Source of the DNA: Paracoccus zhejiangensis
Lineage (GTDB): Bacteria; Pseudomonadota; Alphaproteobacteria; Rhodobacterales; Rhodobacteraceae
Reading direction: 5' to 3'
DNA length: 64,000 nucleotides
NCBI RefSeq assembly: GCF_002847445.1
Contig: NZ_CP025430.1
Location: forward strand, 3,406,501-3,470,500
Position 1 is the stretch's first letter. Every line of letters starts with the position of its first letter. Below are positions 33,364-56,950 of this stretch, one piece after another. The notes under the pieces are model-generated. The model did not search any database, was not told where the DNA came from, and was given only the letters and a program-made list of their open reading frames with translations. A program made the position numbers and the translations under genes.

Positions 33364-34827
33364 TCACCCCCAGGGCAGAGAGAACGTCTTGACGTTGGTG
33401 AAGCTTTTCATCGCCTCGATCACGCCTTCCTTATAGCCGTTGCCGCTGTCCTTGATGCCGCCGAATGGCGACATTTCGATGCGATAGCCGGGCACTTCCC
33501 AGATGTTCACCGTGCCCACCACCAGACCCGAGATGAAAGCCTGCATCCGCCGGTAGTCATTGGTGCAGACCCCCGAGGACAGGCCGAAGGGCGTCGAGTT
33601 CGAGATGCGCATGACCTCGGTATCGTCATCGGGCACGCGAACGATGGGGATGACCGGACCAAAGGTCTCGTCCATCACCAGTTCGCTTTCATGGTTTACA
33701 TGATCGACCACAATGGGCGGCAGCAGCGCGCCCTGCCGGCCCGGGTGATAGAGGATCTTCGCCCCCTGCGCCTCGGCGTCGAGCACGCGGCGCTCGAAGG
33801 TCTCGGCGGCGCGGTCGTGGACGACGCAGCCGAGTTCCGTCGCCGGGTCCATCGGGTCGCCAAAGCGCAGCCTCTTGGCCCGCTCCAGCACCAACGGCAC
33901 GAAACGGTCGGCGACGCTCTCCTGCACCAGGATGCGCTTGACCGCGGTGCAGCGTTGGCCCGAATTCTTGGTCGCCCCGGCCACGGCCAGATCGGCGGCC
34001 TTGGCCAGATCGGCATCCGACAGATCGTTCAGGATGATCAGCGGGTCATTGCCGCCCAGTTCCAGCACCTGCCGCTTGTAGACCGCCTTGGCCGCGATCA
34101 TCTTGCCCACCGGCACGCCGCCGGTGAAGGTGATGAGGTCGAAATCGGCATTGGTGATCATCTCGTCGCCGATATCCTGCGGCCAGCCGGTCAGCACCGA
34201 CAGCATCTCGGGCGGCAACCCGGCCTCGTAGATGGCATCGGCCAGCCACAATGCGGTCAGCGGCGTCAGTTCGGTCGGCTTCACCACGATGCAATTATTC
34301 GTGGCGATGGCCGGCGCGATCTTGTGGCTGACCATGTTCAGCGGGTGGTTGAAGGGGGTGATGGCCGAGATCGCCCGCAAGGGTTCGCGCAGGGTGAAGA
34401 TCTTGCGGCTTTTGCCATGCGGGGTCAGGTCGCAGGAAAAGATCTCGCCATCGTCGAGAATGCATATCTGCCCGGCCAGCGTATAGACATCATAGGCCCG
34501 GCCGCATTCATACAGGGCATCGGCCAGCGAGATACCCAGTTCCGCGGTGATGATCGGCGCAAGCTCGGTCTTTCGGTCGTTGATGATCTGCGCCACGTTT
34601 AGCAGGATCTTCTGCCGCTCGTAGCGGGTCAGCGTCGGGCGATAGGCGGCGGCGATGGCAAAGGCCTCGCGCGCGTGTTCGGCCGTTCCGGCGGGCACGG
34701 TGCCGATCACCTCGCCCGACCAGGGGTAATGCACCGGAACGCGGTCCTTGGTCTGGACCTTGCGCCCGGCGATGCGCATGGCTTCGTGCCGCAGGGCGAT
34801 GGGAGGGGATTTGTCCAGCATCATCAC
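33364..34827 (-). CDS. phnY: Phosphonoacetaldehyde dehydrogenase PhnY
   Basis: 487-residue aldehyde dehydrogenase with [14 protein letters not shown] for NAD binding, the catalytic glutamate region [10 protein letters not shown] and the catalytic cysteine in [11 protein letters not shown]. The partners on either side (PhnA, PhnW) identify the substrate: it oxidises phosphonoacetaldehyde to phosphonoacetate. The start overlaps the phnA stop by four bases. General aldehyde dehydrogenases have the same motifs, so the specific assignment rests on context. Confidence 0.9.
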
Positions 34828-36074
34828 ACCGCCGCCGCCACACAGGCATAAAGGAAGGCATCGAAGTTGCGCAGCACCGGCGCCGAGGGCAAGTCGATCG
34901 GACGGTTGACGATAAAGGGCACCACCTGCTCGGTCAGCCCGCCATGGCTGCGCAAGGGTTCCTTCAGCGCGGCAAGGTCGTGGCGGTGGGCGCTGGTGCC
35001 AAGGGTCATGTTCTCGCCCGAGATCATCACCAGATCGCCGATCCGGTCATCGGGCAGTTCGAAGCGTTCCACCGCCTCGGCCTTGTCCACCACCAGCGTC
35101 ATGCCGGGGATGGCCGACAGCTCGGCGATGACCGCCGCCTGATCGACACCCTCGGGCAGATAGGCGGTGGCAAAGGAACCTAGCGCGCCGTGATGGACAA
35201 CATAGGGATCGGTGATCGGCAGGATCACCCGCGCCTTGTCCTTGCCCAGCATCGCATCAAGCTTGTCCTGCACATAGATCACGGCGGGGCTGCCATCGGC
35301 CAGATGCTTGGGTTTCATACCGTGATCGGCCGTCACCACGATCGCCGCGCCAAGCGCGTCAAGCTGCGCCAGATAGCTGTCGAACATCCTGTAGAAGCTT
35401 TGCGCCTCGGCATCCTCGGGGGCGTATTTGTGCTGCACGTAATCGGTCGTGGTCAGATACATCACGTCCGGCTTCCACTCGGCCAAAAGCCGGACCCCGG
35501 CGGCAAAGACGAATTCCGACAGATCGGCCGAATAGACCTCGGGGACGGGGCGACCCAGCCAGGCGCTGGCATTGTCGATGCCGTTCTCGGCGACGGTGGC
35601 GGTATCGGATTTCTCGGATGAGAAGCAGATCGCCCGATCCTCGTCAAAGCGCAGCCCGGCCCCCAGCAGGGCGCGCAGCTTGTCCTTGGCGGTGACGACG
35701 GCCACGCGCGCGCCGGCCTCGTAGAAGCGGCTGAATACGGTCGGTGCGCGCAGGAAGCGCACATCGTTCATCATCACTTCCTTGCCGGTTTCGCGCTCGT
35801 AGAGGTAGTTGCCGCAGATGCCGTGGACGGCGGGCGGGCGCCCGGTCGCGATGGACAGGTTGTTGGGATTGGTGAAGGAGGGGATCACCGAATGGGCCAG
35901 CCGGTCGGTGCCGGTCTCGCGCATCCGCTTCAGCGTGGGCATCAGCCCCTTTTCGATGGCGACCTCGAGATAGGCGGGTTCGCAGCCGTCGAGGCAGATG
36001 GCGATGGCCGGGACCTTGGGCCAGGGATAGGCGCGGTCATTGGCGAGGACCGGGGCGCGGGAATGGGCGTTCAT
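34824..36074 (-). CDS. phnA: Phosphonoacetate hydrolase PhnA
   Basis: About 416 residues of the alkaline phosphatase superfamily. Metal-binding points are visible: [11 protein letters not shown] (aspartate), [13 protein letters not shown] (threonine nucleophile), TTTDYVQH and VTADHGMKP. These match phosphonoacetate hydrolase, which cleaves the C-P bond to give acetate and phosphate. I chose the ATG at 36074, with GGAACC upstream; another ATG at 36089 adds five residues. It ends inside the phnY start (ATGA). Confidence 0.92.
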
Positions 36075-36106
36075 GTGGTTCGGTTCCATGTGAAGGAGGG
36101 AAGGGG

Positions 36107-37294
36107 TCAGGCGGCCAGCTTGGCGCGCTCGGCAATGGCGGCGGCGGGGGGCGCGGCATTGTCCACACCCATCTCGGTCAGGCTTTCGCCGGCAGCGCGA
36201 ACCACCCGGCGCATGATCTCGGCATCCATGCGGCCGATGCAGCCGACGCGGAAACTGTCCACCACCGTCAGCTTGCCCGGATAGATGATGAAGCCCTTGG
36301 CCTTCATCAGCTCGTAGAAGCGCGAGAAATCAAAGTTCGGATGCGCCGGGTTGAAGAAGGTGACGATGATCGGCGACAGCCAGCGATCGGCCAGCAGGGT
36401 TTCAAAACCCAGTTCGCGCATCCCCGCCACCATCACATCGCGGTTCTGCGTATAGCGGGCACCACGGGCGGGCACGCCACCTTCTTCGGCGTGAAGGCGC
36501 AGCGCCTCGAGGAAGGCCGCGACCACATGGGTGGGCGGCGTAAAGCGCCACTGGCCGGACTTCACAAGCCCCTGCCATTGCGCGTGAACGTCGAGGCTGA
36601 GGGAATGGGCATTGCCCTTGGCCGGCTCGAGTGCCGATCTGCGGGCAATGACGAAGCCAAAGCCCGGCACGCCCTCGATGCATTTGTTGGCCGAGGAGAC
36701 CATCGCGTCATAGCGGATCTGGTTCACGTCCAGTTCGACCGCGCCAAAGGCACTCATCGAGTCGATCAGCAGGCTGCGACCGCGCGCCGCGACTGCCTCG
36801 GCGATTTCGGCCACCGGGTTCAGGATGCCTGAAGAGGTTTCGCAATGGATGGCGATGACATGGGTGATCGCCGGATCGTCGTCCAGCGCGCGGCCCACCT
36901 CGTCACCGCGCGGGGGCAGGTAGTCGCCCTTGTCGATCAGCGTATAGGCCCGGCCCATCACCCGCAGCGTCTCTGCCGCGCGCAGCCCGTAGGCGCCATT
37001 GGCCAGCACCAGCGCCTTGCCGCCCTTCGGCACCATCGTGCCCAGCATCGCCTCGACCGAGAAGGAACCCGAGCCCTGCATCGGCACGCAGACAAACTCG
37101 CCGGCGGTATCTCCGGCCAGCGCCACCAGCTGATCGCAGAGCGAGCGGGTCATGGCGCGGAAATCGGCGTCCCAGGAGCCCCAGTCCCGCAGCATCGCCT
37201 GCTTCACGCTAAAGGCGGTGGTCAGTGGCCCCGGTGTCAGCAGAAACGGCTCTCCCATCTGCGGATCGGGGAAGGCGGCATCGGCGGTGGTCAT
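36107..37294 (-). CDS. phnW: 2-aminoethylphosphonate-pyruvate transaminase PhnW
   Basis: 395-residue class V aminotransferase. Early residues LLTPGPLTT match PhnW. VQGSGSFSVEAMLG-type and IHCETSSGILNP segments surround the cofactor, and the PLP lysine is in SSANKCIEGVPG. It converts 2-AEP and pyruvate to phosphonoacetaldehyde and alanine, the first step of the pathway. It is the first gene of the catabolic unit, with about 95 bases of AT-rich control DNA upstream. (Family motifs are read from the sequence; the reaction is known for PhnW.). Confidence 0.93.
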   Translation of the reverse strand: MTTADAAFPDPQMGEPFLLTPGPLTTAFSVKQAMLRDWGSWDADFRAMTRSLCDQLVALAGDTAGEFVCVPMQGSGSFSVEAMLGTMVPKGGKALVLANGAYGLRAAETLRVMGRAYTLIDKGDYLPPRGDEVGRALDDDPAITHVIAIHCETSSGILNPVAEIAEAVAARGRSLLIDSMSAFGAVELDVNQIRYDAMVSSANKCIEGVPGFGFVIARRSALEPAKGNAHSLSLDVHAQWQGLVKSGQWRFTPPTHVVAAFLEALRLHAEEGGVPARGARYTQNRDVMVAGMRELGFETLLADRWLSPIIVTFFNPAHPNFDFSRFYELMKAKGFIIYPGKLTVVDSFRVGCIGRMDAEIMRRVVRAAGESLTEMGVDNAAPPAAAIAERAKLAA

Positions 37295-41380: not shown

Positions 41381-42145
41381 CTATGGGGTCTGGCCGGCGT
41401 TTCGGGCCCGACTTTGCGCGAGCCTGTAGCTCTCGCCATTCATCTCGAGGATGTTGACGTGGTGGGTCAGGCGGTCGAGCAGAGCGCCGGTCAGCCGCTC
41501 TGTTCCGAAGGTCTCGGTCCATTCGTCGAACGGCAGGTTGCTGGTGATGAGCGTGGCGCCGCGCTCGTAGCGTTGCGAGATCATCTCGAAGAGTAGCTCG
41601 GCGCCGGTCTTTGACAGAGGCACGAAGCCCAGTTCATCGATGATGAGCAGTTTGACCGAAGCCAGCTGCTTCTGGAGCCGCAGGAGGCGGCGCTCGTCGC
41701 GGGCTTCCATCAACTCGTTGACCAGTGCCGCGGCCGTAGTGAAGCTGACCGACATTCCTTTCTGACAAGCGGCCAGTCCCAGCCCCAGAGCAACATGCGT
41801 CTTGCCCGTGCCACTCGGTCCGAGCGCAATGACGTTTTCGCGCCGCTCGATCCATTCGCAACGGGCAAGGTCCAGCACCTGCATCTTGTTGAGCTTCGGG
41901 ATCGCCTTGAAGTCGAAGCTGTCCAGGCTCTTCTTGGCGGGGAACTTTGCAACCTTGATCCGGCGTTCGATCATCCGTCCCTCGCGGTCGATCAGTTCCA
42001 GTTCGACCAGTCGGGCGAGGAACTGGACGTGGTCCAGGCCCTCGGCTGCACATTGGCGCGCCAGCTTCTCGTGCTCCCGCAAGAAGGTCGGGAGCTTCAG
42101 CGTCTTCAGGTGATGAGCAAGCAGGATCTGCGGCGCACCGGTCAT
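41381..42145 (-). CDS. istB: IS21 helper ATPase IstB
   Basis: 254 residues of the DnaC/IstB AAA+ type. Walker A is GPSGTGKTHVALGLG, Walker B is LLIIDELGFVPLS, followed by LLFEMISQRYERG and TSNLPFDEW. IstB selects target DNA and stimulates the IstA transposase. It starts on the last bases of istA, so the two are coupled. Full length with no visible damage. Confidence 0.95.
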   Translation of the reverse strand: MTGAPQILLAHHLKTLKLPTFLREHEKLARQCAAEGLDHVQFLARLVELELIDREGRMIERRIKVAKFPAKKSLDSFDFKAIPKLNKMQVLDLARCEWIERRENVIALGPSGTGKTHVALGLGLAACQKGMSVSFTTAAALVNELMEARDERRLLRLQKQLASVKLLIIDELGFVPLSKTGAELLFEMISQRYERGATLITSNLPFDEWTETFGTERLTGALLDRLTHHVNILEMNGESYRLAQSRARNAGQTP

Positions 42146-43629
42146 GCCGCGTCTCCCGACAGCAGAGACATGTAGCTTGCCGCCGAGGTGGTCCCCACGT
42201 TGGCCCGCGGCAGGTAGGGATAGACATCGAGGTCCAGCTTCGGCGGCCGTTTCTCAACATGGCAGAGAGCGAGGTGCTTCACGGCATCGAAGCCGACAGC
42301 GCCCAATTGCAGGGCCTTCTTCACGGCCGCGTGGAGATCATCGATGTCGAAGGTTTCCAGCAGGCGCAAAACCTGCACATATTCCCGGCGTCCCGCCTTG
42401 ATCATCCGCGCCTCCATCAGGCGGCGCAGGGTTGCGAACTCCGGCGGCAGGTTCCATTCGGCAAGAGGCGCGGCCTGATCCAAAGCATTGATCTTCCTCT
42501 CGATGAGCGGGAGGTAATGCACCGGATCGAACACCATGTCCTCGCGGTCATAGCAGCGGGGGTGGCGTGCGATGAGCTCGCCACCGCAGCCGATCACAAC
42601 CTCGTCGACATAGCCCCTGATCCAGACATCGCGGTGGCCGTAGGCGACCGGCACCGAGTAATCGTTGGTCTTGTAGCGCACCAGCGCTTGGGAACTGACT
42701 CGCCCGGTGGCTTGGTCGCAGGCATCGAACGGCGCGGGTGGCAGATCAGACATCACGACCAGATCTCGCACGAGGCGTTCCCCGATGGTCTCGGACTGGC
42801 CGCGCAGAACATCCGCCTGACGTTTGCGACACTGCTCCTCCAGATAGGCGTTGAACGAAGCCCAACTCACAAACCGCGGGACCGGGACCATGAAGTTGCG
42901 GCGGGAATAGCCGACCAATCCTTCCGCGTTGCCCTTGTCGTTCCCCTTGCCGGGGCGGCCATAGCGGTCTCGGAACAGGTAGTGGGACAGGAACCCGCTG
43001 AAGAGCGTGGCCCGCTGACGTGTGCCGTCCGCCAGGATCTTCGCAACAAGACAGCGATCGTTGTCGTAGAGGACCGATACCGGCACCCTGCCGAAGAAGG
43101 CGAAGGCGTGGACGTGGCCGTCTACCCAGGCTTCCGCTGTCGCCGCGGGATAGGCGCGCACGAAGCAGGCATCACTGTGCGGCAAGTCCATAACGAAGAA
43201 GTGCGCCTTCTGCTCGACGCCGCCGATGACGACCACAGCCTCGCCGAAGTCGGCCTGGGCATGTCCTGGCGGATGGGCTAGCGGCACGAAAATCTCTCGG
43301 CCGCGCCGCTCGCGCTCCCGCATATAGTCCTTGATGATCGTATAGCCGTCGGTGAAGCCATGCTCATCGCGAAGCCGCTCGAATACCCGCTTCGCCGTGT
43401 GCCGTTGCTTTCGATGGACCTCGCGATCCCCCTCCAGCCAGCCATCGATGATCTCGGTGAACCCATCCAGCTTCGGCCGCTTCACCGGCGCCGTCCGCCG
43501 GTATCCAGGCGGAACCGAGAACGCCAACATCTTCCGAACGCTGTCGCGGGAAACCCCAAACTGACGCGCAGCCTCGCGCTGGCTCATGCCTTCTGAACAA
43601 GCCAGGCGAACCTTCCGATACAAATCCAC
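42142..43629 (-). CDS. istA: IS21 transposase IstA
   Basis: 495 residues. A helix-turn-helix near the N-terminus (MSQREAARQFGVSRDSVRKML) is followed by a DDE integrase core: HAQADFGEAVV, YDNDRCLV-type second acid and GNDKGNAEGLVGYSRRNFMVP for the glutamate, then a C-terminal DNA-binding region (YSVPVAYGHRDVWIRGY). It acts with IstB. Complete, so the element may still be active. Confidence 0.95.
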   Translation of the reverse strand: MDLYRKVRLACSEGMSQREAARQFGVSRDSVRKMLAFSVPPGYRRTAPVKRPKLDGFTEIIDGWLEGDREVHRKQRHTAKRVFERLRDEHGFTDGYTIIKDYMRERERRGREIFVPLAHPPGHAQADFGEAVVVIGGVEQKAHFFVMDLPHSDACFVRAYPAATAEAWVDGHVHAFAFFGRVPVSVLYDNDRCLVAKILADGTRQRATLFSGFLSHYLFRDRYGRPGKGNDKGNAEGLVGYSRRNFMVPVPRFVSWASFNAYLEEQCRKRQADVLRGQSETIGERLVRDLVVMSDLPPAPFDACDQATGRVSSQALVRYKTNDYSVPVAYGHRDVWIRGYVDEVVIGCGGELIARHPRCYDREDMVFDPVHYLPLIERKINALDQAAPLAEWNLPPEFATLRRLMEARMIKAGRREYVQVLRLLETFDIDDLHAAVKKALQLGAVGFDAVKHLALCHVEKRPPKLDLDVYPYLPRANVGTTSAASYMSLLSGDAA

Positions 43630-43747
43630 GGTGAAAATCCTCCCGCCCTCCCTGTCGCCAGAAAGGGTAAAGGTGGACGACTTTTACGCCGCCCGCAGCG
43701 GGCTCATCCCGCCGCTACCGTGGTCGACTTTCTCACCGCCGTTCTCA

Positions 43748-44839
43748 GACCCGGCCAGCTCCGATCCCTCGCGCGAGGCGATCTTCTTCCAGCGGCTCGA
43801 GGTGCTGTCGGGCTTCGATGCCGCGCGGCAATTGTGGGAAAGCCCGCAGATGCAGGCGGCGAACATCTCGGGCGGGCGCTGGGGCGGGGTGCAGGGCAGC
43901 GACCCGGGCAGCGGGTCGCAGGCCTGGTCGATGCTGACCCATATGAACGGGAGGCCGATGCCCAAGGGCGGTTCTGGCATGGTCAGCACCTCGCTTGGCC
44001 GCTTCATCGAGGCGCATCAGGGCACGGTCCTGACCAATATGCCGGTGGTGGCGCTGATGATCGAGGACGGCCGCTGCACCGGCGTCGAATGCGCCGATGG
44101 CAGCCGCTTCCGGGGCCGCAAGGGCGTGGTCTCGACCATACATGTCAAGCATCTGATGCAGATGGCGCCCTCGGATCTTTGGGGGCAGGCCTTCACCGAC
44201 AGCGTCGAGGTCTGGCAACCCGAAATGGCCATGTTCGCCTTCCATTTCGCGCTGAAGGGATCGCCCGAATATCCGCTGGCCGGGGGTGGTTCGGTCACCG
44301 GGGCCGAGGCCTCGATCATGGAGCGTCCGGAAAGCATCTTCAAACTGAACGAGGACAATGCCCGGGGCGAGCTGACGCTGGAAGATTATCCGCTGCAGAT
44401 CGTCCATGCCGCCGGCTATGACCGCAGTCGCGCGCCCGACGGCTTTTCGCTGCTGAAGATCGAGGGCGGGATGCCCTATGCGCTGAAGGAAGGCCCCGAG
44501 CATTGGGACGCGATCAAGGACGAGGTCGCCGATCAGGTGCTGGACCGCTACCTGCGCTATACCCCGAACCTCACGCGCGAGAATGTGCTGGCGCGGGTGA
44601 TCATGAGCCCGATCGACATCGAGCGGATGAACCCCGCCATGTGGCGCGGCAGCGTGCATCATCTGGACAAGCGCTGGGGCAATTTCGCGCCCTACCGGAT
44701 GCCGATCCCGGGGCTTTACCAGACCGGGGCCTGCACCGCGCCGGGCGGGTCGGTCACCGGCCAGCCCGGCCGCAACGCCGCCATCGCCATTCTGGAAGAT
44801 GACGGCAAGACGTTGGCCGAGGTGGTCGGAAGGGGTTGA
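43748..44839 (+). pseudogene. FAD oxidoreductase (phytoene dehydrogenase-like), N-terminus lost
   Basis: The remaining 363 residues match the middle and end of NAD(P)/FAD-dependent oxidoreductases of the phytoene dehydrogenase class, ending GLYQTGACTAPGGSVTGQPGRNAA, the usual C-terminal FAD contact. The N-terminal dinucleotide-binding GxGxxG domain is missing because the coding frame enters from the IS21 right end at 43747. The frame stays open through the IS end, so a chimeric protein could be made but would not bind FAD normally. It is followed closely by a multiheme cytochrome, suggesting an electron-transfer pair. Confidence 0.82.
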
Positions 44840-44862: not shown

Positions 44863-45453
44863 ATGCTCCGTTGGATTGCTTTCACCGGGTTTGCCGTCCT
44901 TGGCGCCGGCATGGCCATGGTCACGGTCGCGCCGGTCACCGCGCAGCAGGAGGCGCCCCCGCCCGCCGAACGGGTGGTCGAGCCGGTTCAGGCCAACCCG
45001 AACCCGCCGCCTGCACCGAACCAGCCCTTGCCCTATAGCCATCAATGGCATGTGGGCGAGCTGGGGCTCGACTGCACCACCTGCCATGTGAACCCCGATC
45101 CCGGCAATATGATGACCTTCCCGGCCACCCAGACCTGCATGGATTGCCACAGCGACATCGCCATCGAGAAAGAGCCGATCCAGCGCCTGACCCAGTATCA
45201 CGAAGCGCAGGAGCAGATCCCCTGGGAACGGGTCTATCAGGTCCTGCCCGGCGTTACGTGGAGCCATCGCACCCATATCGATGCCGGGGTCGATTGCACC
45301 TCCTGCCACAGCGCGGTCTCGGAGATGCCGCAGATGCAGGAGGTGACGGCGGTGACCAGCATGGCCAGCTGCATGAACTGCCACGAACAGCAGGGCGCGC
45401 CGAATACCTGCGTGACCTGCCACAGCTGGCCGAATGCCGGGAATACGCCGTAG
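44863..45453 (+). CDS. Pentaheme c-type cytochrome
   Basis: 196 residues with a signal peptide (cleavage near VTAQQ) and a proline-rich spacer. Five CxxCH heme-binding motifs follow: CTTCH, CMDCH, CTSCH, CMNCH and CVTCH. Extra histidines (YSHQWH, WSHRTH) sit where distal ligands are expected in cytochrome c3/c7-like proteins. The ATG at 44863 follows AAGGGGGGG. It probably carries electrons in the periplasm, perhaps from the neighbouring flavoprotein, whose gene is now broken. No recognised terminal reductase is nearby. Confidence 0.87.
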   Translation: MLRWIAFTGFAVLGAGMAMVTVAPVTAQQEAPPPAERVVEPVQANPNPPPAPNQPLPYSHQWHVGELGLDCTTCHVNPDPGNMMTFPATQTCMDCHSDIAIEKEPIQRLTQYHEAQEQIPWERVYQVLPGVTWSHRTHIDAGVDCTSCHSAVSEMPQMQEVTAVTSMASCMNCHEQQGAPNTCVTCHSWPNAGNTP

Positions 45454-45533
45454 GGCTGCTGGCGGAGGGGTCTCGCCCCCATGTCAAGGATGTCCCTCTG
45501 TCGGCGCGATCGTGACTCGTCTCGAGGGCGGAG

Positions 45534-45812
45534 GAAGCTGGCGAAGCTCTGCGGAAGTCCGAGCACATGCATTCGAAACCCGTTGCGCCAGATCGAGCGC
45601 ACGCCGCTGCCTTCGTGCCCTACGGCGCCGATCAGGCATTCGATATCGGCCTCAAGAATCAGCTGTAGGACGGCCTCGGCGATGTCGCGTTCCAAGTCGC
45701 AGTGATAGTGCTTGGTCAGAAGCTCGGAGAGCTCCATGCCTCGCCGTGGTTGCTTGGACCAGTGGCGCTCCCATGCCTCGGTCTTGATCATCGGAGTTTT
45801 CATAGACCCCAT
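45534..45812 (-). pseudogene. N-terminal remnant of an IS256-type transposase
   Basis: The minus-strand reading MELSELLTKHYHCDLERDIAEAV and WRNGFRMHVLGL lines up with the start of the intact IS256 transposase at 25538 (MDLSELLAKHDQGDF, WRNGYRERAL). It stops after about 80 residues; the catalytic region is absent and the frame runs on into unrelated DNA antisense to the cytochrome. A relic of an earlier insertion. Confidence 0.75.
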
Positions 45813-45855: not shown

Positions 45856-46383
45856 TTGGTCGAGCCCCGGCGCGACGACCCACTGGTCGCCCATTTCGAA
45901 GGTCGCAGCATCCGCATCGTCTCGTTCGGAACTGTGCCCGACCGCCTCGACATTCCCGCAGTTGACCTGCGCTCGCACGAGACGGCAAAGCTGCTCCTCT
46001 ATCATCTGGCGATGCAGGGATGCCGCTGCGTGGCGGCGCTGGTGGCGTCAGCCGAGCGGACCAGCCAGATCGAAAGCGCCGCGGCCTACACCGCCTTTAT
46101 CGGCAGCCGCCGCGCGCCGTCGCTGATGCTGAGGCTCGACGAGGAGGGCGGCGAGGAGATCGGCTATCGCGAGACCCTGCGGCTTCTGCGCGAGACGCCG
46201 AAAATCGACGGCATCTTTGCCGCTGTCGACCTGCATCTGCCGGTGATCGCCGAGGAGGCGGTGAACCTGCTTTTCGATCGGATCGAGGGCCGGAGCCGCA
46301 AGGTCAGGGCCGAACTGTCGGATCTGATCGTGAGACGATCCTCGGTCGCCAAAGACGTGATCCGTTTCGATCGAGACACGTGA
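45856..46383 (+). pseudogene. LacI-family regulator, head missing and internal deletion
   Basis: The 175-residue frame encodes part of the effector domain of a LacI/PurR-type repressor (VSFGTVPDRLDIPAVDLRSHETAKLLLYHLAMQG, with SAERTSQIE). The helix-turn-helix half is absent. Near the end IFAAVDLHLP joins two parts that in relatives are about 50 residues apart, both containing AVD, so a deletion between short repeats is likely. The tail (EEAVNLLFDRIEGRSR) is normal. It cannot bind DNA. Confidence 0.65.
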
Positions 46384-46458: not shown

Positions 46459-49400
46459 ATGGACTCCCGTTCCCGCGAATTTCTCGAGCGTTGCCTTTCC
46501 CTTGATCTCGAGGTCGATCCCAAATCCGCCAGGATATTCGCGTTTGCCGCCGCGCGATGTGATGAAACCCCGGCCATCATTTCCCACAAGGGTGCGGTAG
46601 AGGAGGCTCTCGACAAACTGGATGATGCCTTGCCCGCGACCGGACATCTGATCGGCCACAATATCCTGCGTCACGACCTGCCACATCTGATGGCGGTCCG
46701 GCCAAGGCTGGCGAGACTGGCGCAGGACGCGATTGACACACTGTGGCAGAACCCGTTGGCGTTTCCGCGCAATCCCTATCATCGGCTGGTCAAGCATTAC
46801 CATGATGGGCGATTGCAGGTCGGCCATGTGAATGATCCGGAACAGGATGCACGTCTGGTATTTCAGGTGCTGGAAAACCAGATCGAGGCGTTCGGCCAGC
46901 TGAATGTCAAGGAACCAGACGCGTTGATCGCGTATCATCTGCTGACGACGCGGGGCGAGGCATCGTGTGGGTTTGATGCCGTCTTCCGGCATGTCCGCGG
47001 CGCAGCCTGCCCTTCTTCCGCAACGGCCCATGAGGCGATCCGGCGGCTGCTTTCGGGGCGTGCCTGCGACAGACGGGTCGATCAGGTGCTAAGCCGGCTG
47101 GTCGATCCGAGGCTTGGCTGGCCCATGGCCTATGCGCTGGCCTGGATCTCGGTCGCTGGTGGGGATTCTGTCATGCCACCCTGGGTGCGGATGCAGTTCC
47201 GGGAGGCCTCGCTGATCGTGCGGCATCTGCGCGATACCGCCTGCGATAGCCCCGACTGCAGCTGGTGCCGCGAGCAGAGCGACCCGGGCCGCGCCCTGAC
47301 CCGCTGGTTTGGATTCGATGCGTTTCGTCCGCAGCCCCAGGAACCTGAAACCGGTCGGCCCCTGCAGGAGCGGATTGTCGAAGAGGCGATGCGGGGTCAA
47401 AGCATCCTTGGCATTCTGCCGACGGGGACCGGAAAATCTCTCTGCTACCAGATCCCGGCACTGACGAAATTCGACAAGACCGGGGCACTGACGGTGGTGA
47501 TCTCGCCGCTGGTCGCGCTGATGGCGGACCAGGTGCAGGGGATGGAACGGGCGGGGATCTCGTCGGCTGTAACCATCAACGGAATGCTGTCCATGCCCGA
47601 GCGGCAGAATGCGCTGGATCAGGTGCGGATGGGCGAGGCGGCGATCCTGCTGATCTCGCCAGAACAACTGCGCAGTGTCACGGTCCGTTCGGTGCTGAGA
47701 CAGCGCGAGGTCGGGCTTTGGGTGCTCGACGAAGCCCATTGCGTTTCGAAATGGGGGCACGATTTCCGGCCCGACTACCGCTATATCTCGCGCTTCATCA
47801 GGGAAACCTCGGGCGATGAACCGGCGCCGCCGGTCCTGTGCCTGACGGCCACCGCCAAGCCCGAGGTGGTGCAGGACATCCGCGAACATTTCCACTCGCG
47901 GCTGGATGTTGATCTGTTGCTGCTGGACGGTGGCGCGGCGCGCACCAATTTGTCCTTCGAGGTGCGCGAAACGCAGCGCAATACCAAACTGGCCGATATT
48001 CTGGACGTGATAGAGGCGAAGCTGCCGGCCGAGGGCGTATCAGGCGCGGTGGTCTATTGCGCCACCCGCAGCGCGACCGAACGCGTCGCCAACTTTCTGA
48101 AAGGGCAAGGGCTTGCCGCCGAGCATTTCCATGCCGGGCTGACCCCCGACGTAAAACGCGACATTCAGGAAAGGTTCCGCGTTGGCGCCTTGCGGATCAT
48201 CGCCGCGACAAATGCCTTTGGCATGGGAATCGACAAGCCTGATATCCGGCTGGTCGTGCATGGTGATATTCCGGGATCGCTGGAAAACTATCTGCAAGAG
48301 GCCGGGCGTGCAGGCCGCGACCGGGCTCATGCCAACTGCGTGCTGCTGTTCTCGACCGAGGATGTCGAGCGGCAGTTTTCCCTGTCGGCGCGCTCGCGGC
48401 TGGCGCGGCACGAGATCGGCGCAATCCTCAGGGCGTTGCGCCGGATCGATGGCCGAACCGAGAAATCCGGCGAGGTCGTCGCCACCTCTGGCGAGATCGT
48501 CCGGGCCGAGCGTGATCAGGAATTCGCGCGCGACAGCGCCACCGATGATACCCGCGTCAAGACGGCCGTTTCCTGGCTGGAGGAGGCCAGTCTACTGTCG
48601 CGCGAGGAAAACCGGGTGAAGGTGTTTCCGTCCTCGTTGCGCATCCGTAATCTGGACCAGGTCGAGCAGATCCTCTTCCGCCAGTCGATCACCGGTGTGA
48701 GGCGCAAGCAGTTGCTGGATATCGTCCGCCATCTGATGAATGCACCGGCCGATCTGGGGATTTCCACCGACGAGCTAACCGGCGTCAGCGGGCTGACAGG
48801 GGCGGGGCTGAACAAGGCGATGGCCGATCTCGAGACGCTTGGCATTGCCCGCAACGATCTGGCGGTGACGGTCTTTGTCCATGTCGGGGTTGAGGGGCAT
48901 TCGCAGAGCCGGTACGCGCAAGCGTCGCGATGGGAGGCCGAGTTGATCGCGCTGATGCGCGAGGTCGCGCCGGATGCTGATGGCACGTCGGCTGTGCCGC
49001 TGCATTTGGCCGAGACCTGTCAGGCGTTGCGCGACAGGGGCCATGGGGCGGTGCGCCCCGATGTCATTGAAAAGCTCTTGCGTGGCATGGCGCGCGACGG
49101 GCGTGACCAGGATGGCGGACGCGGCAATCTGCATCTGCGCAAGGACTCGCGCAATACGCTGCTGGTCACATTGCAGCGGCCCTGGCAGGTGGTGGAGCAG
49201 ACGGCGGTTATCCGGCGTCAGGGTGCGGAATTGCTGCTGACCCATCTGACCGGCAAGGTCGCGAAAGGGACGCGCGGCAAGGATCTGCAGGTGGAAACCA
49301 CGATGGGCGACCTGCTGGCCAGCCTGACCGGCGATGCCTTTCTGCGCAGTGCGGTGCAAGACATGAACAAGCTGATGGAGCGCGCCCTGCTGTGGCTGCA

Positions 49401-51558
49401 TGAGCAGGAGGTGGTGACGCTCGGCAAGGGGCTGACGGTATTTCGCCCGGCGATGACAGTGCATCTGCGACCGGGTCGCGAGACCTTCACCGTCGACCAT
49501 TTCACGCCGCTTGAACAGCATTATGCCGAACAGACGATCCAGACCCATGTGATGGCCGCCTATGCTCAGCAGGGTCTCGAGGCAATGGACCGGGCCGAGA
49601 AGCTTTCAAGTGATTACTTCCAGCTCGATCAGGACAGCTTCCTGAACAAGTGGCTGCCGGGTCGCGGCGCCGAAATCGGTCGACAGACAACCGGCATCTC
49701 GTGGCGCTCGATCGTCGAGGCGCTGAACAATCCAGTGCAGCAAAAGATCGTTGCCGATGATCGCGAACAGACCAATGTTCTGGTCCTGGCCGGACCCGGA
49801 TCGGGCAAGACCCGGGTGCTGGTGCATCGCATCGCCTATCTGATCCGTGTCCGGCGCGAGGATCCGCGCGGCATTCTGGTCCTGGCCTATAATCGCCATG
49901 CTGCGGCAGAGATCCGCGCGCGGCTGCGCCATCTGATCGGGGACGATGCAATTCATGTTACCGTTTCGACCTGTCATGCCATGGCCATGCGGCTGGTCGG
50001 GGCAAGCTTCGCCGGGGCCACCGGAAGCGACCACGATTTTGATGGCATCGTGCTGGAGGCCGTCCGGCAGCTGAATGGCGAGGGGCTGAGCAAGGCCGAG
50101 GCCGAAGCGCAGCGCGATGCGCTCATACAGGGATATCGATGGATTCTGGTCGACGAGTACCAGGATATCGGGCCCGAGGAATATGCGCTGATCGCGGCGA
50201 TCGCCGGGCGATCGCTTGAAGATCCCGATCTGCGTCTGAGCCTGTTCGCCGTGGGTGACGATGATCAGAACATCTATGCATTCGCCGGCGCCTCGGTGGA
50301 CTTCATTCGCCGCTTCGAAGGTGAGTATCGCGCTAAGCCCGAATACCTGATCGAGAACTACCGCTCGTCCCGTCACATCATCGATGCCGCCAATGCCGTG
50401 ATTGCCCCGGCCGGGGCACGAATGAAGGCCGATCAGCAGATCACAATTGACCGCAAGCGCGCAGGGCACCCCGCCGGCGGGGCGCTCGCTGATCTCGATC
50501 CCGTCGCCGCCGGTCGCGTGCAGCTTTTGCGATGCCCGTCCGGGGCCGTCGCCCAGGCCGTCGCGGCTGTGGACGAGCTTCTGCGCTTGTCCCGCCTCGA
50601 TCCTGACTGGAGCTGGTCCCGCGCCGCGATCATCTCGCGCGAGTGGAAGCGGTTGGGGCCGGTCCGTGCCTATGCTGAGGCTTGCGGCATTCCCGTCGAG
50701 ATGGCCAACGAGAGCCTTCCGAATATCTGGCGGCTGCGCGAGATGCAGATTTTTGTTGCCGCGATCAGACAGGATCCCGCTGCGCGGCTGGGGATCGGGG
50801 ATTTGGTTGAACGGCTGAACTGCCAGCCGGGCAACCGGTGGATTGATCTTATCGCCGAGGGCATTGCCGCGCTGGCGCGCGAGATCGCCGACAAGACGAT
50901 TCCGGCGCCCGACCTGATCGAGTGGTTCGCCGAATGGGCACGTGATACGCGAGGTGAGCAGCGCGGGCTGTTGCTGCTGACCGCGCATCGCGCCAAAGGG
51001 CTGGAATTCAACGATGTGGTCATTCTTGACGGGGGCTGGGAAAAGCCATCGCGGGGAGAAGACCGCGATGCCCCCCGCCGCCTGTTTTACGTCGCCATGA
51101 CCCGCGCGCGCCGAAGCCTGTCGGTGATGGCGGATGGCAGGCATCCGTTCCTGGCCACTGGCGAGGCGCTGCTGCAGCGCGAGGTCCGGCCCGACTGTCG
51201 GGTGCTACAGGGGCGGTCAGAGCATTATGTGATGCCCGAGATGAAACTGGTAGATCTGTCCTGGGCCGGACGGCAGGCATCCGCCAGTACCGAGCTTGCC
51301 GCAATTGGTGTCGGCGATCCGGTGAATCTCGTCTACCGCGAGCTGAATGGCAAACGCGGCTGGTATATCTGCGATCTGGACGGGCGGGTCCTTGGCCGTA
51401 TGTCAGGCGGGTTCTCTCCCCCCGGGGGCTTGACGTTCCTGCGCGGCGAGGTCGGCGCGGTTATCCGCTGGCGCAAGCGCGACAACAGCGAAGAATATCG
51501 CAGCCACATCCGCCGGGATGAGTGGGAGGTGGTTCTGCCGGAACTGGTATTCGGGTAG
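46459..51558 (+). CDS. Giant exonuclease-RecQ-UvrD helicase fusion
   Basis: One unbroken 1699-residue protein from the ATG at 46459 (a TTG at 46441 adds six). Numbering from the ATG: residues 10-170 look like a DEDD 3'-5' exonuclease (LDLEVD with Asp16 and Glu18, GHNILRHDLPHL, EQDARLVF). A C-x4-C-x2-C cluster is at 262-270. Residues 300-700 form a RecQ helicase (PTGTGKS with Lys326, DEAHC at 424-428, QEAGRAGR at 613-620). Residues about 1095-1560 form a UvrD/Rep helicase (AGPGSGKT with Lys1117, VDEYQD, TAHRAKGLEF, AMTRARRSL). The last 80 residues resemble a small beta-rich domain. Both motors look active. Surrounded by dead mobile elements, it stands alone with no partner gene. Possible roles are DNA repair or anti-phage defence. 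Confidence 0.88.
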   Translation: MDSRSREFLERCLSLDLEVDPKSARIFAFAAARCDETPAIISHKGAVEEALDKLDDALPATGHLIGHNILRHDLPHLMAVRPRLARLAQDAIDTLWQNPLAFPRNPYHRLVKHYHDGRLQVGHVNDPEQDARLVFQVLENQIEAFGQLNVKEPDALIAYHLLTTRGEASCGFDAVFRHVRGAACPSSATAHEAIRRLLSGRACDRRVDQVLSRLVDPRLGWPMAYALAWISVAGGDSVMPPWVRMQFREASLIVRHLRDTACDSPDCSWCREQSDPGRALTRWFGFDAFRPQPQEPETGRPLQERIVEEAMRGQSILGILPTGTGKSLCYQIPALTKFDKTGALTVVISPLVALMADQVQGMERAGISSAVTINGMLSMPERQNALDQVRMGEAAILLISPEQLRSVTVRSVLRQREVGLWVLDEAHCVSKWGHDFRPDYRYISRFIRETSGDEPAPPVLCLTATAKPEVVQDIREHFHSRLDVDLLLLDGGAARTNLSFEVRETQRNTKLADILDVIEAKLPAEGVSGAVVYCATRSATERVANFLKGQGLAAEHFHAGLTPDVKRDIQERFRVGALRIIAATNAFGMGIDKPDIRLVVHGDIPGSLENYLQEAGRAGRDRAHANCVLLFSTEDVERQFSLSARSRLARHEIGAILRALRRIDGRTEKSGEVVATSGEIVRAERDQEFARDSATDDTRVKTAVSWLEEASLLSREENRVKVFPSSLRIRNLDQVEQILFRQSITGVRRKQLLDIVRHLMNAPADLGISTDELTGVSGLTGAGLNKAMADLETLGIARNDLAVTVFVHVGVEGHSQSRYAQASRWEAELIALMREVAPDADGTSAVPLHLAETCQALRDRGHGAVRPDVIEKLLRGMARDGRDQDGGRGNLHLRKDSRNTLLVTLQRPWQVVEQTAVIRRQGAELLLTHLTGKVAKGTRGKDLQVETTMGDLLASLTGDAFLRSAVQDMNKLMERALLWLHEQEVVTLGKGLTVFRPAMTVHLRPGRETFTVDHFTPLEQHYAEQTIQTHVMAAYAQQGLEAMDRAEKLSSDYFQLDQDSFLNKWLPGRGAEIGRQTTGISWRSIVEALNNPVQQKIVADDREQTNVLVLAGPGSGKTRVLVHRIAYLIRVRREDPRGILVLAYNRHAAAEIRARLRHLIGDDAIHVTVSTCHAMAMRLVGASFAGATGSDHDFDGIVLEAVRQLNGEGLSKAEAEAQRDALIQGYRWILVDEYQDIGPEEYALIAAIAGRSLEDPDLRLSLFAVGDDDQNIYAFAGASVDFIRRFEGEYRAKPEYLIENYRSSRHIIDAANAVIAPAGARMKADQQITIDRKRAGHPAGGALADLDPVAAGRVQLLRCPSGAVAQAVAAVDELLRLSRLDPDWSWSRAAIISREWKRLGPVRAYAEACGIPVEMANESLPNIWRLREMQIFVAAIRQDPAARLGIGDLVERLNCQPGNRWIDLIAEGIAALAREIADKTIPAPDLIEWFAEWARDTRGEQRGLLLLTAHRAKGLEFNDVVILDGGWEKPSRGEDRDAPRRLFYVAMTRARRSLSVMADGRHPFLATGEALLQREVRPDCRVLQGRSEHYVMPEMKLVDLSWAGRQASASTELAAIGVGDPVNLVYRELNGKRGWYICDLDGRVLGRMSGGFSPPGGLTFLRGEVGAVIRWRKRDNSEEYRSHIRRDEWEVVLPELVFG

Positions 51559-54375: not shown

Positions 54376-54615
54376 ATGCCTGCCGGAACGACCAGACCAT
54401 TGGTGTGCAGCGCGAGGGCATTGGGCGCATCTGAGGTTAACAACACCGCGTGCGAGTATGTCGCGGCACGGGTGCCGACCCTGGCAGGTGACGGCGGGAC
54501 CGATGTCGTGGTTGAAGCCGTAGGCTCTGAAATGACCTGTCTCGCCGCGTCCGACGCCGGCTATGTCGCCGGGCATATTCTCGTTGTCAACGTCGGGGCT
54601 TTGCGCAGGTTTTGA
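54376..54615 (+). pseudogene. Possible dehydrogenase gene fragments
   Basis: One frame reads ARALGASEVNNT, then GDGGTDVVVEAVGSE, a pattern of the cofactor domain of zinc-type alcohol dehydrogenases, and straight after it ASDAGYVAGHILVVNVG, which recalls the end of short-chain dehydrogenases. Neither is long enough to be sure. I read it as two gene scraps joined by deletion. Confidence 0.3.
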
Positions 54616-54766
54616 AAGGGGTAGCCGATTTCACGTCGAAGGCCGCCATCGCAACTGCGGCGTCGAGTTTGGCGTACGGTGCGCTCGTGCAGCTTGCGTC
54701 CGAGTGGCCCAGCCTCGCCTCCGCTTCCCCCTTCCCCCTCCCACCTTTGCAGCCTATGCAAACCAA

Positions 54767-55705
54767 ATGAGCACGATCCCCGATCCCAACAGCGATTCGC
54801 CGCGCGGCCTGGTCTTTGCGCTGGCCGCCTATGTCCTGTGGGGATTCCTGCCCCTCTACATGAAGGCGCTGGACCATATTTCGCCCTTCGAGATCATTGC
54901 CCATCGGGTGATCTGGTCGCTGCCCATCGCCGCCGTCGTGCTGTTCTGGCAGGGCCGCAGTGCCGATGTGCTGACTGCGCTGCGCACCCCACGTCTGCTG
55001 GCGATGGCCGCGCTGACGGCGGCGCTGATCTCGGTCAACTGGCTGATCTATGTCTGGGCGGTGACCAACGATCACGCCATGGATGCGGCGCTTGGCTATT
55101 ACATCAACCCGTTGTTCAGCATCTTCCTTGGCGCGATGCTGCTGGGCGAGCGGCTGAACCGGCTGCAGAAGCTGGCGGTCGCGCTGGCCGCCGCCGCGGT
55201 GATCCTGCTGACGGTCGAGGCCGGGCGCCTGCCGCTGGTGGCCGTTGGGCTGACGCTCAGCTGGGGCTTCTATGCCTATTGCAAGAAAAGCCTGCCGCTT
55301 GGTCCCAATCAGGGGTTCACGCTCGAGGTGTTGCTGCTGCTTCCGCTCGCCATCGGCTATGTCATCTGGCTGCAGGTGAACGGGCAAAGCCACTTCGCGC
55401 AGGGTAATCTCAAGGACAGCATCCTCCTGATCCTCGCCGGTCCGGCCACCGCCATCCCGCTGATGTTCTATGCCAATGGCGCCAAGCTGGTACGGCTTTC
55501 GACCATCGGCACGCTGCAATACATCACCCCCACCATGGTCTTCATCACCGCGCTTCTGGTCTTTGGCGAACCCTTTGAGGGGGCGCGGCTGATCGCCTTT
55601 CCGATGATCTGGTTGGCGCTGGTGATCTATTCGGTTACGCTGATCCGAGAGGCTGGCCAACGCCGCCGCACGCGCCGGGACATGGCCAGCCAACGTGCAA
55701 ACTAG
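54767..55705 (+). CDS. rarD: RarD-type EamA/DMT permease
   Basis: 312 residues with ten hydrophobic helices. RarD-type marks are visible: LVFALAAYVLWGFLPLYMKAL at the N-terminus, NWLIYVWAVTNDHAMDAALGYYINPL in the middle and YITPTMVFITALLVFGEPF near the end. The ATG at 54767 gives the normal family length; the frame is open upstream without resemblance. Substrate unknown. It begins the compact right-hand block and is followed after nine bases by a VOC protein gene. Confidence 0.9.
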   Translation: MSTIPDPNSDSPRGLVFALAAYVLWGFLPLYMKALDHISPFEIIAHRVIWSLPIAAVVLFWQGRSADVLTALRTPRLLAMAALTAALISVNWLIYVWAVTNDHAMDAALGYYINPLFSIFLGAMLLGERLNRLQKLAVALAAAAVILLTVEAGRLPLVAVGLTLSWGFYAYCKKSLPLGPNQGFTLEVLLLLPLAIGYVIWLQVNGQSHFAQGNLKDSILLILAGPATAIPLMFYANGAKLVRLSTIGTLQYITPTMVFITALLVFGEPFEGARLIAFPMIWLALVIYSVTLIREAGQRRRTRRDMASQRAN

Positions 55706-55714
55706 GAGGCTCTC

Positions 55715-56149
55715 GTGCCCCTGCCGCGTCAACGCGTTACGCTGATTACGCTCGGAACCCGCGACCTGATCCGTGCCCGCAACTTCTACGAGGCTTGGGG
55801 CTGGAAGCTGCACCCCCGGTCGCAGGACGGTGTCGCCTTCTACCAGATGCAGGGTGCCGTTCTGGGGCTGTTCGGGCTGAAGGACCTGGCCGAGGACCAG
55901 GGGCGCCCCGATGCCGAGCTGGGCATGGGGGCGATCACCCTGGCGCAGAACTGCCCGACCGATGCCGAGACCGATGCAACGTTCCAAGCGGCGATCGCCG
56001 CCGGTGGCACGGTGCTGAAGAAGCCCGAAAAGGTCTTCTGGGGCGGCTATTCCGGCTATTTCTCCGATCCCGACGGCCATGTCTGGGAGATCGCCACCAA
56101 CCCCTTCTGGCCGCTGGCCGCTGATGGCAGCCTGACCCTTCCAGACTGA
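55715..56149 (+). CDS. VOC-family (glyoxalase-like) protein
   Basis: 144 residues, starting with GTG after AGGAGG. One glyoxalase/bleomycin-resistance domain: VTLITLGTRDLIRARNFYEAWGW, then VAFYQMQGAVLGLFG, and SGYFSDPDGHVWEIATNP with the metal-ligand glutamate. These proteins work as dimers on varied substrates, so function is open. It is probably co-transcribed with the rarD-type gene. Confidence 0.87.
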   Translation: MPLPRQRVTLITLGTRDLIRARNFYEAWGWKLHPRSQDGVAFYQMQGAVLGLFGLKDLAEDQGRPDAELGMGAITLAQNCPTDAETDATFQAAIAAGGTVLKKPEKVFWGGYSGYFSDPDGHVWEIATNPFWPLAADGSLTLPD

Positions 56150-56227
56150 CTTTCAAAGGGGGCTGAGCGCCCCTTTGCGCTTTGGCGCGGAATGCGGCAG
56201 GCTGCCCGCCAGCACGGGGAAACCGAC

Positions 56228-56950
56228 ATGGAATGGCAGGCCGAGGGCACGGTGATCACGCGCCGCGCGCATGGGGAAAACGCCATCATCATCGAAGTGA
56301 TGACGGTGGAGTTCGGCCGCCATGCCGGGCTGGTGCCGGGGGGTGCCTCGCAGAAGCGGGCGGCGCTGCTGCAACCGGGGAACCGCCTCTCGCTGCGCTG
56401 GCGGGCGCGGCTGGATGACCAGCTGGGCACCTTTGCCGCCGAACCCCTGCGCGCCCGTCCGGGGCTGATGGCCGATCCGCTGGCTCTGGCCGGGCTGAAC
56501 GCCGTCTGCGCGATGCTGGGATTTGCCCTGCCCGAACGCGACCCGCATCCCGGCCTGACACTGTCGACCGAGGCGCTGCTGGACCGGATGGATGCGGGCG
56601 GGGACTGGGCCGAGGATTATCTGCACTGGGAAATGCAGCTTCTCGACGAGATGGGCTTCGGCCTCGATCTCGTCGATTGCGCGGTAACCGGCGCGCGGGA
56701 GGGGCTGGCCTATGTCAGCCCGCGCTCGGGCCGGGCCGTTAGTCGGGCCGGGGCAGGGGAATGGGCGGACCGCCTTTTACCGCTGCCGGCGATCCTCGGC
56801 GGGGCCGGGGACAATCGCGGCCGGGGCATTGCCGAGGGGCTGGCCATCACTGGGCATTTTCTGGATGCCCGGCTGGCGCGGGAGCTGGTGGGAAAGCCGC
56901 TGCCAGCCGCGCGGGGGCGGCTGGTGCGGCGTTTGGCCGGGGGGAGCTGA
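56228..56950 (+). CDS. recO: DNA repair protein RecO
   Basis: 240 residues. The OB-fold N-terminus (EWQAEGTVITRRAHGENAIIIEVMT, then FGRHAGLVPGG) and a helical C-terminus (LHWEMQLLDEMGFGLDLVDCAVTG) match RecO, which loads RecA on gapped DNA with RecF and RecR. The zinc cysteines of some RecO proteins are absent here, as in many Alphaproteobacteria. I chose the ATG at 56228 over one at 56192 because EWQAEG is the usual start. Confidence 0.93.
   Translation: MEWQAEGTVITRRAHGENAIIIEVMTVEFGRHAGLVPGGASQKRAALLQPGNRLSLRWRARLDDQLGTFAAEPLRARPGLMADPLALAGLNAVCAMLGFALPERDPHPGLTLSTEALLDRMDAGGDWAEDYLHWEMQLLDEMGFGLDLVDCAVTGAREGLAYVSPRSGRAVSRAGAGEWADRLLPLPAILGGAGDNRGRGIAEGLAITGHFLDARLARELVGKPLPAARGRLVRRLAGGS

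Follow-up and report, generated by a model that had tools for sequence, protein, structure and literature searches.

The locus raises the question of what a single protein does that joins an exonuclease to two helicases of different superfamilies, and whether it serves defence against mobile DNA, repair of the host genome or the needs of a mobile element. In the window (the whole stretch of 64,000 nucleotides that was analysed), the gene is a single uninterrupted open frame encoding, in its long form, a chain of 1,699 amino acids (Table 1). The earlier note had read in this chain an SF2 motor, an SF1 motor and a DEDD-like nuclease, with the main motifs of each present. This reading held throughout, as the open frame, the Pfam domains and the predicted fold agree with one another and the key residues are conserved. 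In an alignment of the window protein with 84 near-full-length relatives (85 rows), the key motif residues were kept in 84–85 rows for the RecQ half and in 83–85 rows for the UvrD half.

Table 1. Features of the exonuclease-RecQ-UvrD gene and of its surroundings in the window.
Feature	Position	Strand	Basis
Whole gene, exonuclease-RecQ-UvrD protein	46459..51558	+	Open frame, Pfam domains, full-length homologues
Residues 1–151, predicted DEDD 3'-5' exonuclease fold	46459..46911	+	Predicted structure, fold matches, conservation
Residues 152–295, helical region with four invariant Cys (203, 262, 267, 270)	46912..47343	+	Conservation
Residues 296–640, RecQ-type SF2 helicase core	47344..48378	+	TIGR00614 score, motif residues
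Residues 641–1080, intermediate region	48379..49698	+	Predicted model; no Pfam family above cut-off
Residues 1081–1575, UvrD-type SF1 helicase core	49699..51183	+	Pfam domains, SF1 motif residues
Residues 1618–1699, C-terminal beta-rich (SH3-like?) domain	51310..51555	+	Five strands in predicted model
IS21-like istB/istA pair, apparently intact	41381..43629	-	ORFs of 254 and 495 aa; family by eye
Fragment reading as LacI-type regulator, just upstream of gene	45856..46383	+	175-aa frame; name by eye
Core flank rarD - glyoxalase-like - recO	54563..56950	+	Names by eye; conserved in relatives

The SF2 core matched the Pfam families DEAD (residues 300–473) and Helicase_C (528–621), and its score of 299.1 bits against TIGR00614 lies above the curated subfamily cut-off (219.8), which places it in the RecQ family. 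An identity as orthologous RecQ was rejected, as the score against TIGR01389 (347.8 bits) falls below the equivalog cut-off of 640.2. The Pfam search found no RQC or HRDC match in the window protein. The SF1 core matched UvrD from residue 1091 onwards and UvrD_C at 1505–1556; with 135.6 bits for PF00580 (gathering threshold 23) and 47.6 bits for PF13361 (25.6) it is assigned to the UvrD/Rep helicases. The two cores are separated by about 440 poorly matched residues that hit no Pfam family above its cut-off; the model of this region has a pLDDT of mostly 70–96 and, as judged by eye, it probably consists of a row of winged-helix modules. The C-terminal domain gave only a sub-threshold match to SH3_2 (E 0.11). 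The four cysteines ahead of the RecQ core are invariant in all 85 rows and in all 145 rows of a larger alignment, and may form a putative metal site. Elsewhere in the same genome (five contigs, 4.6 Mb) a separate RecQ-like frame of 687 aa and a UvrD-like frame of 860 aa were found, so the fused protein is an extra to these. Judged by the names of the protein's relatives, the host belongs to the Rhodobacterales (Alphaproteobacteria).

The protein-database version of the window copy has 1,490 aa; it starts near residue 210, omits positions 46459–47085 and has no nuclease domain. Since the sequence upstream of the database start is conserved, the long form is favoured, and most relatives among the matches listed share it. 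The database start is likely a start-site misannotation, which would hide the architecture.

Structure prediction for the N-terminal domain, proposed in the earlier note as a check, returned a DEDD fold with a pLDDT of 91.7 for residues 1–151. The predicted nuclease domain matched DinG, REXO2, DnaQ and ExoI, with an exonuclease-DinG as nearest fold, and its RNase H-like exonuclease fold together with D16, E18, D73 and D130 assigns it to the DEDD (DnaQ-like) group. All 85 rows have these four residues, and the 145-row alignment keeps them throughout except at gaps and in one row. The place of the catalytic His of the DEDDh subtype, five residues before the last Asp, is occupied by Asn125; this position is never His, being Asn in 79, Ser in 4 and Ala in 2 of the 85 rows, and Asn in 141, Ser in 3 and Lys in 1 of the 145, so that DEDDh was rejected. 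In the DEDDy subtype a Tyr stands four positions ahead of the last Asp. The WRN-like DEDDy assignment failed as well, with Asp (71), Asn (12), Ser (1) and Lys (1) at position 126 in the 85 rows. His108 and Lys112 are nearly invariant. A description of a 'DEDDn' nuclease subtype was not found in open-licence PMC papers. Loss of the DEDDh His could leave the nuclease domain non-catalytic, a point taken up below.

The protein is neither an orphan nor an artefactual fusion. When 5.8 billion proteins were searched, 8,000 candidates were scored, 4,684 of them at an E-value of 0.001 or better; among the 120 matches listed, all except the window's own were 69–82% identical, and the named entries were mostly called 'RecQ family ATP-dependent DNA helicase' or 'ATP-dependent DNA helicase RecQ'. 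From genome contigs at least 80 relatives were kept, most of them matched over almost the full length. They span the Alpha-, Beta- and Gammaproteobacteria, Chloroflexota, Acidobacteriota, Actinomycetota and others, many of those outside the Proteobacteria being metagenome bins that are possibly mis-binned. These relatives, together with the 84 near-full-length rows that can be aligned with the window protein, form a defined family of exonuclease-RecQ-UvrD proteins. A class with exonuclease and RecQ parts that lacks the UvrD half was not evident among the best 120 of 7,885 matches to residues 1–640, which had scattered lengths and were in several cases marked partial. Four distant relatives (L200, L201, L205 and L209; 29–36% identity, open frames of about 1,460–1,650 aa) lie on contigs called viral, where they adjoin genes that by eye are methylase-like, SMEK-like and serine- or tyrosine-recombinase-like; by eye they look like a deeper branch of the family.

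The presence of the gene is patchy at every level surveyed: matches occurred in 10 of 101 genomes of its own genus (six near full length, one of these with an internal stop), 22 of 149 of its family and 15 of 398 of a sample of its phylum, the own genome included each time, and in 5 of 61 genomes of another family of the same phylum in which it had first looked frequent; these counts include partial copies, and thresholds differ between them. This rules out a fixed core gene in these groups, and the gene is accessory. In a tree of 68 rows (quick method, SH-aLRT support) the Nitratireductor copy pairs with that of Tritonibacter (support 100), and a pair from Aquibium and Rhizobium vallis falls inside a 16-row, mostly Rhodobacterales group (support 99, weaker within the group). 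Such groupings, which mix orders, suggest transfer between orders. Compared with the copy in another genome of the same genus (L187), the sole complete pair, dN/dS was 0.148 for the whole gene, 0.149 for the nuclease, 0.085 for the RecQ part, 0.219 for the middle, 0.096 for the UvrD part and 0.191 for the C-terminus; a second, incomplete pair gave 0.127. Interrupted, split or fragmentary copies were seen in some relatives (L186 of genome G225, L109, L193 and L194), which suggests gene turnover.

By eye, the window copy is surrounded by IS remnants rather than by intact defence genes. The names in this paragraph were likewise assigned by eye. An apparently intact IS256-type transposase frame lies at 25538–26743, and an apparent N-terminal remnant of a related element at 45237–45812, just upstream of the gene. 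A FAD-oxidoreductase-like frame followed by a multi-haem cytochrome-like frame (43586–44839) overlaps with its start the IS21-like pair, which appears to have cut into the former. Further to the left an apparent 2-aminoethylphosphonate breakdown set (transaminase, phosphonoacetate hydrolase-like and aldehyde dehydrogenase genes; 33364–37294, minus strand) is found beside ABC transporter genes at 28–32 kb. In the right flank, rarD and recO occur together in 8 of 10 fetched regions of relatives, and these eight extend 4 to 14 kb past rarD; neither the tested window genes left of rarD nor the exonuclease-RecQ-UvrD gene itself was found in any of the ten.

Among relatives, the gene was found on 17 of 72,556 plasmid records, of which eight were inspected, six with gene tables. 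On an Allochromatium plasmid the type I restriction genes hsdS/M/R begin about 1 kb from the gene, with one small gene between, and on a Thiothrix plasmid a type I-D CRISPR locus lies about 4–13 kb away. The other four tabled plasmids carry toxin-antitoxin or HipA genes and/or transposases within 14 kb, and their gene tables name no restriction or CRISPR system. Viral contigs yielded 22 relatives of varying completeness; eight were inspected, and 10 neighbour proteins of three were tested. These three are prophage-like contigs: L196 is flanked on one side by genes for both terminase subunits, small and large, and for a phage methylase/ParB, and on the opposite side by transporter-like genes; near L195 lie an O-like replication protein and a methylase/ParB, but host-like genes too; and L198 has a Mu-type transposase, a transposition protein and a CI-like repressor nearby. 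In none of 50,697 phage records did a single place cover 80% of the protein; there were 23 partial matches, and the 10 listed correspond to the RecQ core. Two copies (L031, from Aquibium, and L051, from Massilia) occupy chromosomal sites where no phage genes were obvious by eye, the latter between ordinary housekeeping-looking genes.

The earlier note had called for a homologue search and a count of defence genes among the neighbours, and both were carried out. Among the neighbours of 81 loci, 901 in all, no partner recurred: the largest cluster, ABC transporters in assorted positions, occurred at 14 loci, and the next at 8. No conserved operon partner was thus found, which fits the suggestion in that note that the protein may act alone. 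Neighbour genes were taken from a simple gene caller (at least 100 aa) and compared with PADLOC models at 1e-20. In the window's own taxonomic family, 148 genes (of 169) within 5.8 kb of the gene in 18 genomes matched 45 models, including PDC-S06, type IIG restriction, Septu PtuA and Hachiman HamB with one gene each; the clear defence count was about 4 of 148 genes, judged from the 25 models shown. The control comprised 144 genes (of 337) on 20 stretches of the same family, hand-placed on large contigs of nine genomes (eight of the 18 and the window's own), and matched two models, mad3 and one Pycsar cyclase. The mad3 model was taken as an ABC-ATPase cross-match and omitted from both sets (4 and 5 genes).

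A wider set consisted of the 118 nearest neighbours at 69 loci, none of them farther than 725 bases from the gene. It was drawn from 338 called neighbours (within 3.2 kb, below 1,700 aa) as the nearest 120 minus two taken as gene pieces (L058 and L092); it still includes L109, itself a gene piece, and nine more size-fitting neighbours were left out. It matched 127 models, and the 25 shown include type IV restriction (4 genes), PDC-S36 (3), PDC-S68 (2), PDC-S37/Hhe, ZorA, LmuA, a reverse transcriptase, AbiEii, CARF-RtcR and others. By our reading of the tally, about 15 of the 118 genes match defence models as against about 1 of 144 in the control, in which comparison the wide set is taxonomically broader, and overlaps are possible within the 15 because the tally names models and not proteins. 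When 10 large neighbours were picked by hand, five matched defence models and five matched none. Individual cases are ZorA beside the Cereibacter flavus copy (L039), a type IV restriction enzyme beside that of Oceaniglobus (L032), PDC-S68 beside that of Rhizobium vallis (L095) and PDC-S37/Hhe beside that of Aquibium; a CARF-type regulator at L106 is a weaker sign of defence.

The defence role, which the earlier note had offered as an inference, is strengthened by the patchy presence, the order-mixing tree, the plasmid copies, the three prophage-like contigs and the excess of defence-model matches over the control. On this genomic association we consider it likely, by a fair margin, that the protein is a solitary, horizontally spread helicase-nuclease directed against mobile elements, most likely phages. 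For a more specific proposal we judge the chances to be about even. On that proposal the protein would be the type member of a widespread, hitherto undescribed family of single-protein defences, and branched phage or plasmid DNA would be dismantled by two motors predicted to share one polarity together with a DEDD exonuclease whose subtype is new (Asn for the catalytic His/Tyr). Translocation is 3'-to-5' in both the RecQ and the UvrD/Rep families, so that a RecBCD-like joint run from a plain duplex end is unlikely. Instead, the two motors may each act on their own 3' arm where the DNA is branched or gapped (fork, flap, D-loop or ssDNA gap) and would pull the structure apart, while the N-terminal domain would trim or hold the freed 3' end and the cysteines, the intermediate region and the beta domain might supply substrate choice. 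Phage or plasmid DNA would then fail to complete replication or circularisation. Since the general-base His is missing, the nuclease would be either slow and tightly gated, or use another residue, for which His108 and Lys112 are candidates.

The N-terminal domain might be a dead nuclease fold that merely binds 3' ends, the protein being a pure two-motor remodeller, which is compatible with a defence role. This agrees with the constant lack of the DEDDh His and with the text available from PMC12345164, in which replacement of the catalytic His by Ala in Staphylococcus aureus DinG nearly abolished exonuclease activity. Four metal-binding acidic residues kept without exception in the smaller alignment, and nearly so in the larger, would be unusual for a dead site, however, and we regard a dead fold as somewhat improbable.

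Residence in defence islands amounts to guilt by association, and accessory repair genes or helpers borne by genetic parasites would fit it as well. One rival is that the protein works in DNA repair or recombination as an accessory enzyme, a bacterial counterpart of WRN or exo-DinG, which has spread horizontally and serves host genome stability. This would account for the repair-type component parts and for the nearest fold, exonuclease-DinG, a protein discussed in connection with mitomycin damage in the available text of PMC12345164. A match is absent, however, from 91 of 101 genomes of the genus, the one genome checked has separate RecQ- and UvrD-like frames, and no recurrent repair operon lies beside the gene, whereas defence-model matches do appear. 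Neither of the two outcomes that the earlier note had named as refuting its reading, a fixed core position with repair genes or the lack of a DEDD fold, was seen. We hold the repair role to be unlikely. Less likely still, and in our view quite improbable, is a helper of mobile elements that acts in prophage or plasmid replication, recombination or counter-defence and not in host defence. The prophage-like contigs and plasmids could be explained in this way, but copies also occupy the chromosomal sites without obvious phage genes described above, a recurrent association with replication or packaging genes is absent, and the neighbours include several unrelated defence models. If the anti-mobile-element role is true, a large multi-phylum family that is mostly labelled 'RecQ helicase' in databases moves into bacterial immunity, and one chain unites activities that RecBCD, AddAB and Gabija divide among subunits. 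How two motors of one polarity cooperate would then need explaining, and the protein would be a natural case in which to ask if a DEDD exonuclease works without its general base.

In PADLOC-DB 2.0.0 (2023), 87 models match the protein; no end-to-end model was found among the best 25, each of which lies within one motor half. A RecQ-UvrD fusion or a defence role for one was not found described among the open-licence PMC papers listed and may already appear elsewhere, for instance in newer defence catalogues; the available text of PMC9122126 and of PMC5512222 has no bearing on such a fusion. The best PADLOC match (E 4.3e-112, residues 276–652) is DpdF of the Dpd 7-deazaguanine restriction system, which shares the RecQ-like core, but membership was rejected on a score of 201.5 bits against an NCBIfam cut-off of 550 and on the absence of a recurrent neighbour set. 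WRN combines an N-terminal DEDD exonuclease and a RecQ core in one chain. It resembles the window protein in this layout and is among the solved-structure matches for residues ~265–642, but the window protein lacks the DEDDy Tyr and has a second, UvrD-type motor. The motors of RecBCD are of opposite polarity. RecBCD and AddAB consist of several subunits with a RecB-type nuclease, whereas the window protein is one chain whose motors both belong to 3'-5' families. DinG is an XPD-type helicase. The S. aureus enzyme (8zef/9ii8), whose N-terminal exonuclease is the nearest fold to the window's nuclease domain, keeps the catalytic His149 and is a 5'-3' helicase in the available text of PMC12345164. 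It has no UvrD half, whereas the window protein has one, and Asn125 in place of the His. The Gabija protein GajB is a UvrD-like SF1 helicase of a defence system, and its PADLOC models match the UvrD half of the window protein (E 4.1e-51). Gabija depends on a nuclease made as a separate protein, GajA, whereas the window protein fuses a nuclease of another fold and a RecQ motor; with no GajA frame seen by eye beside the window gene and no recurrent partner at 81 loci, membership was rejected. In the available text of PMC12407980, Gabija is proposed to block the circularisation of linear phage DNA lacking RecBCD. DruE of Druantia III is a helicase-nuclease effector reported, in the available text of PMC13192584, to engage replication intermediates containing ssDNA, but it works together with DruH. 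Gabija and Druantia III are analogies that follow a comparable logic, not as systems to which the exonuclease-RecQ-UvrD protein belongs.
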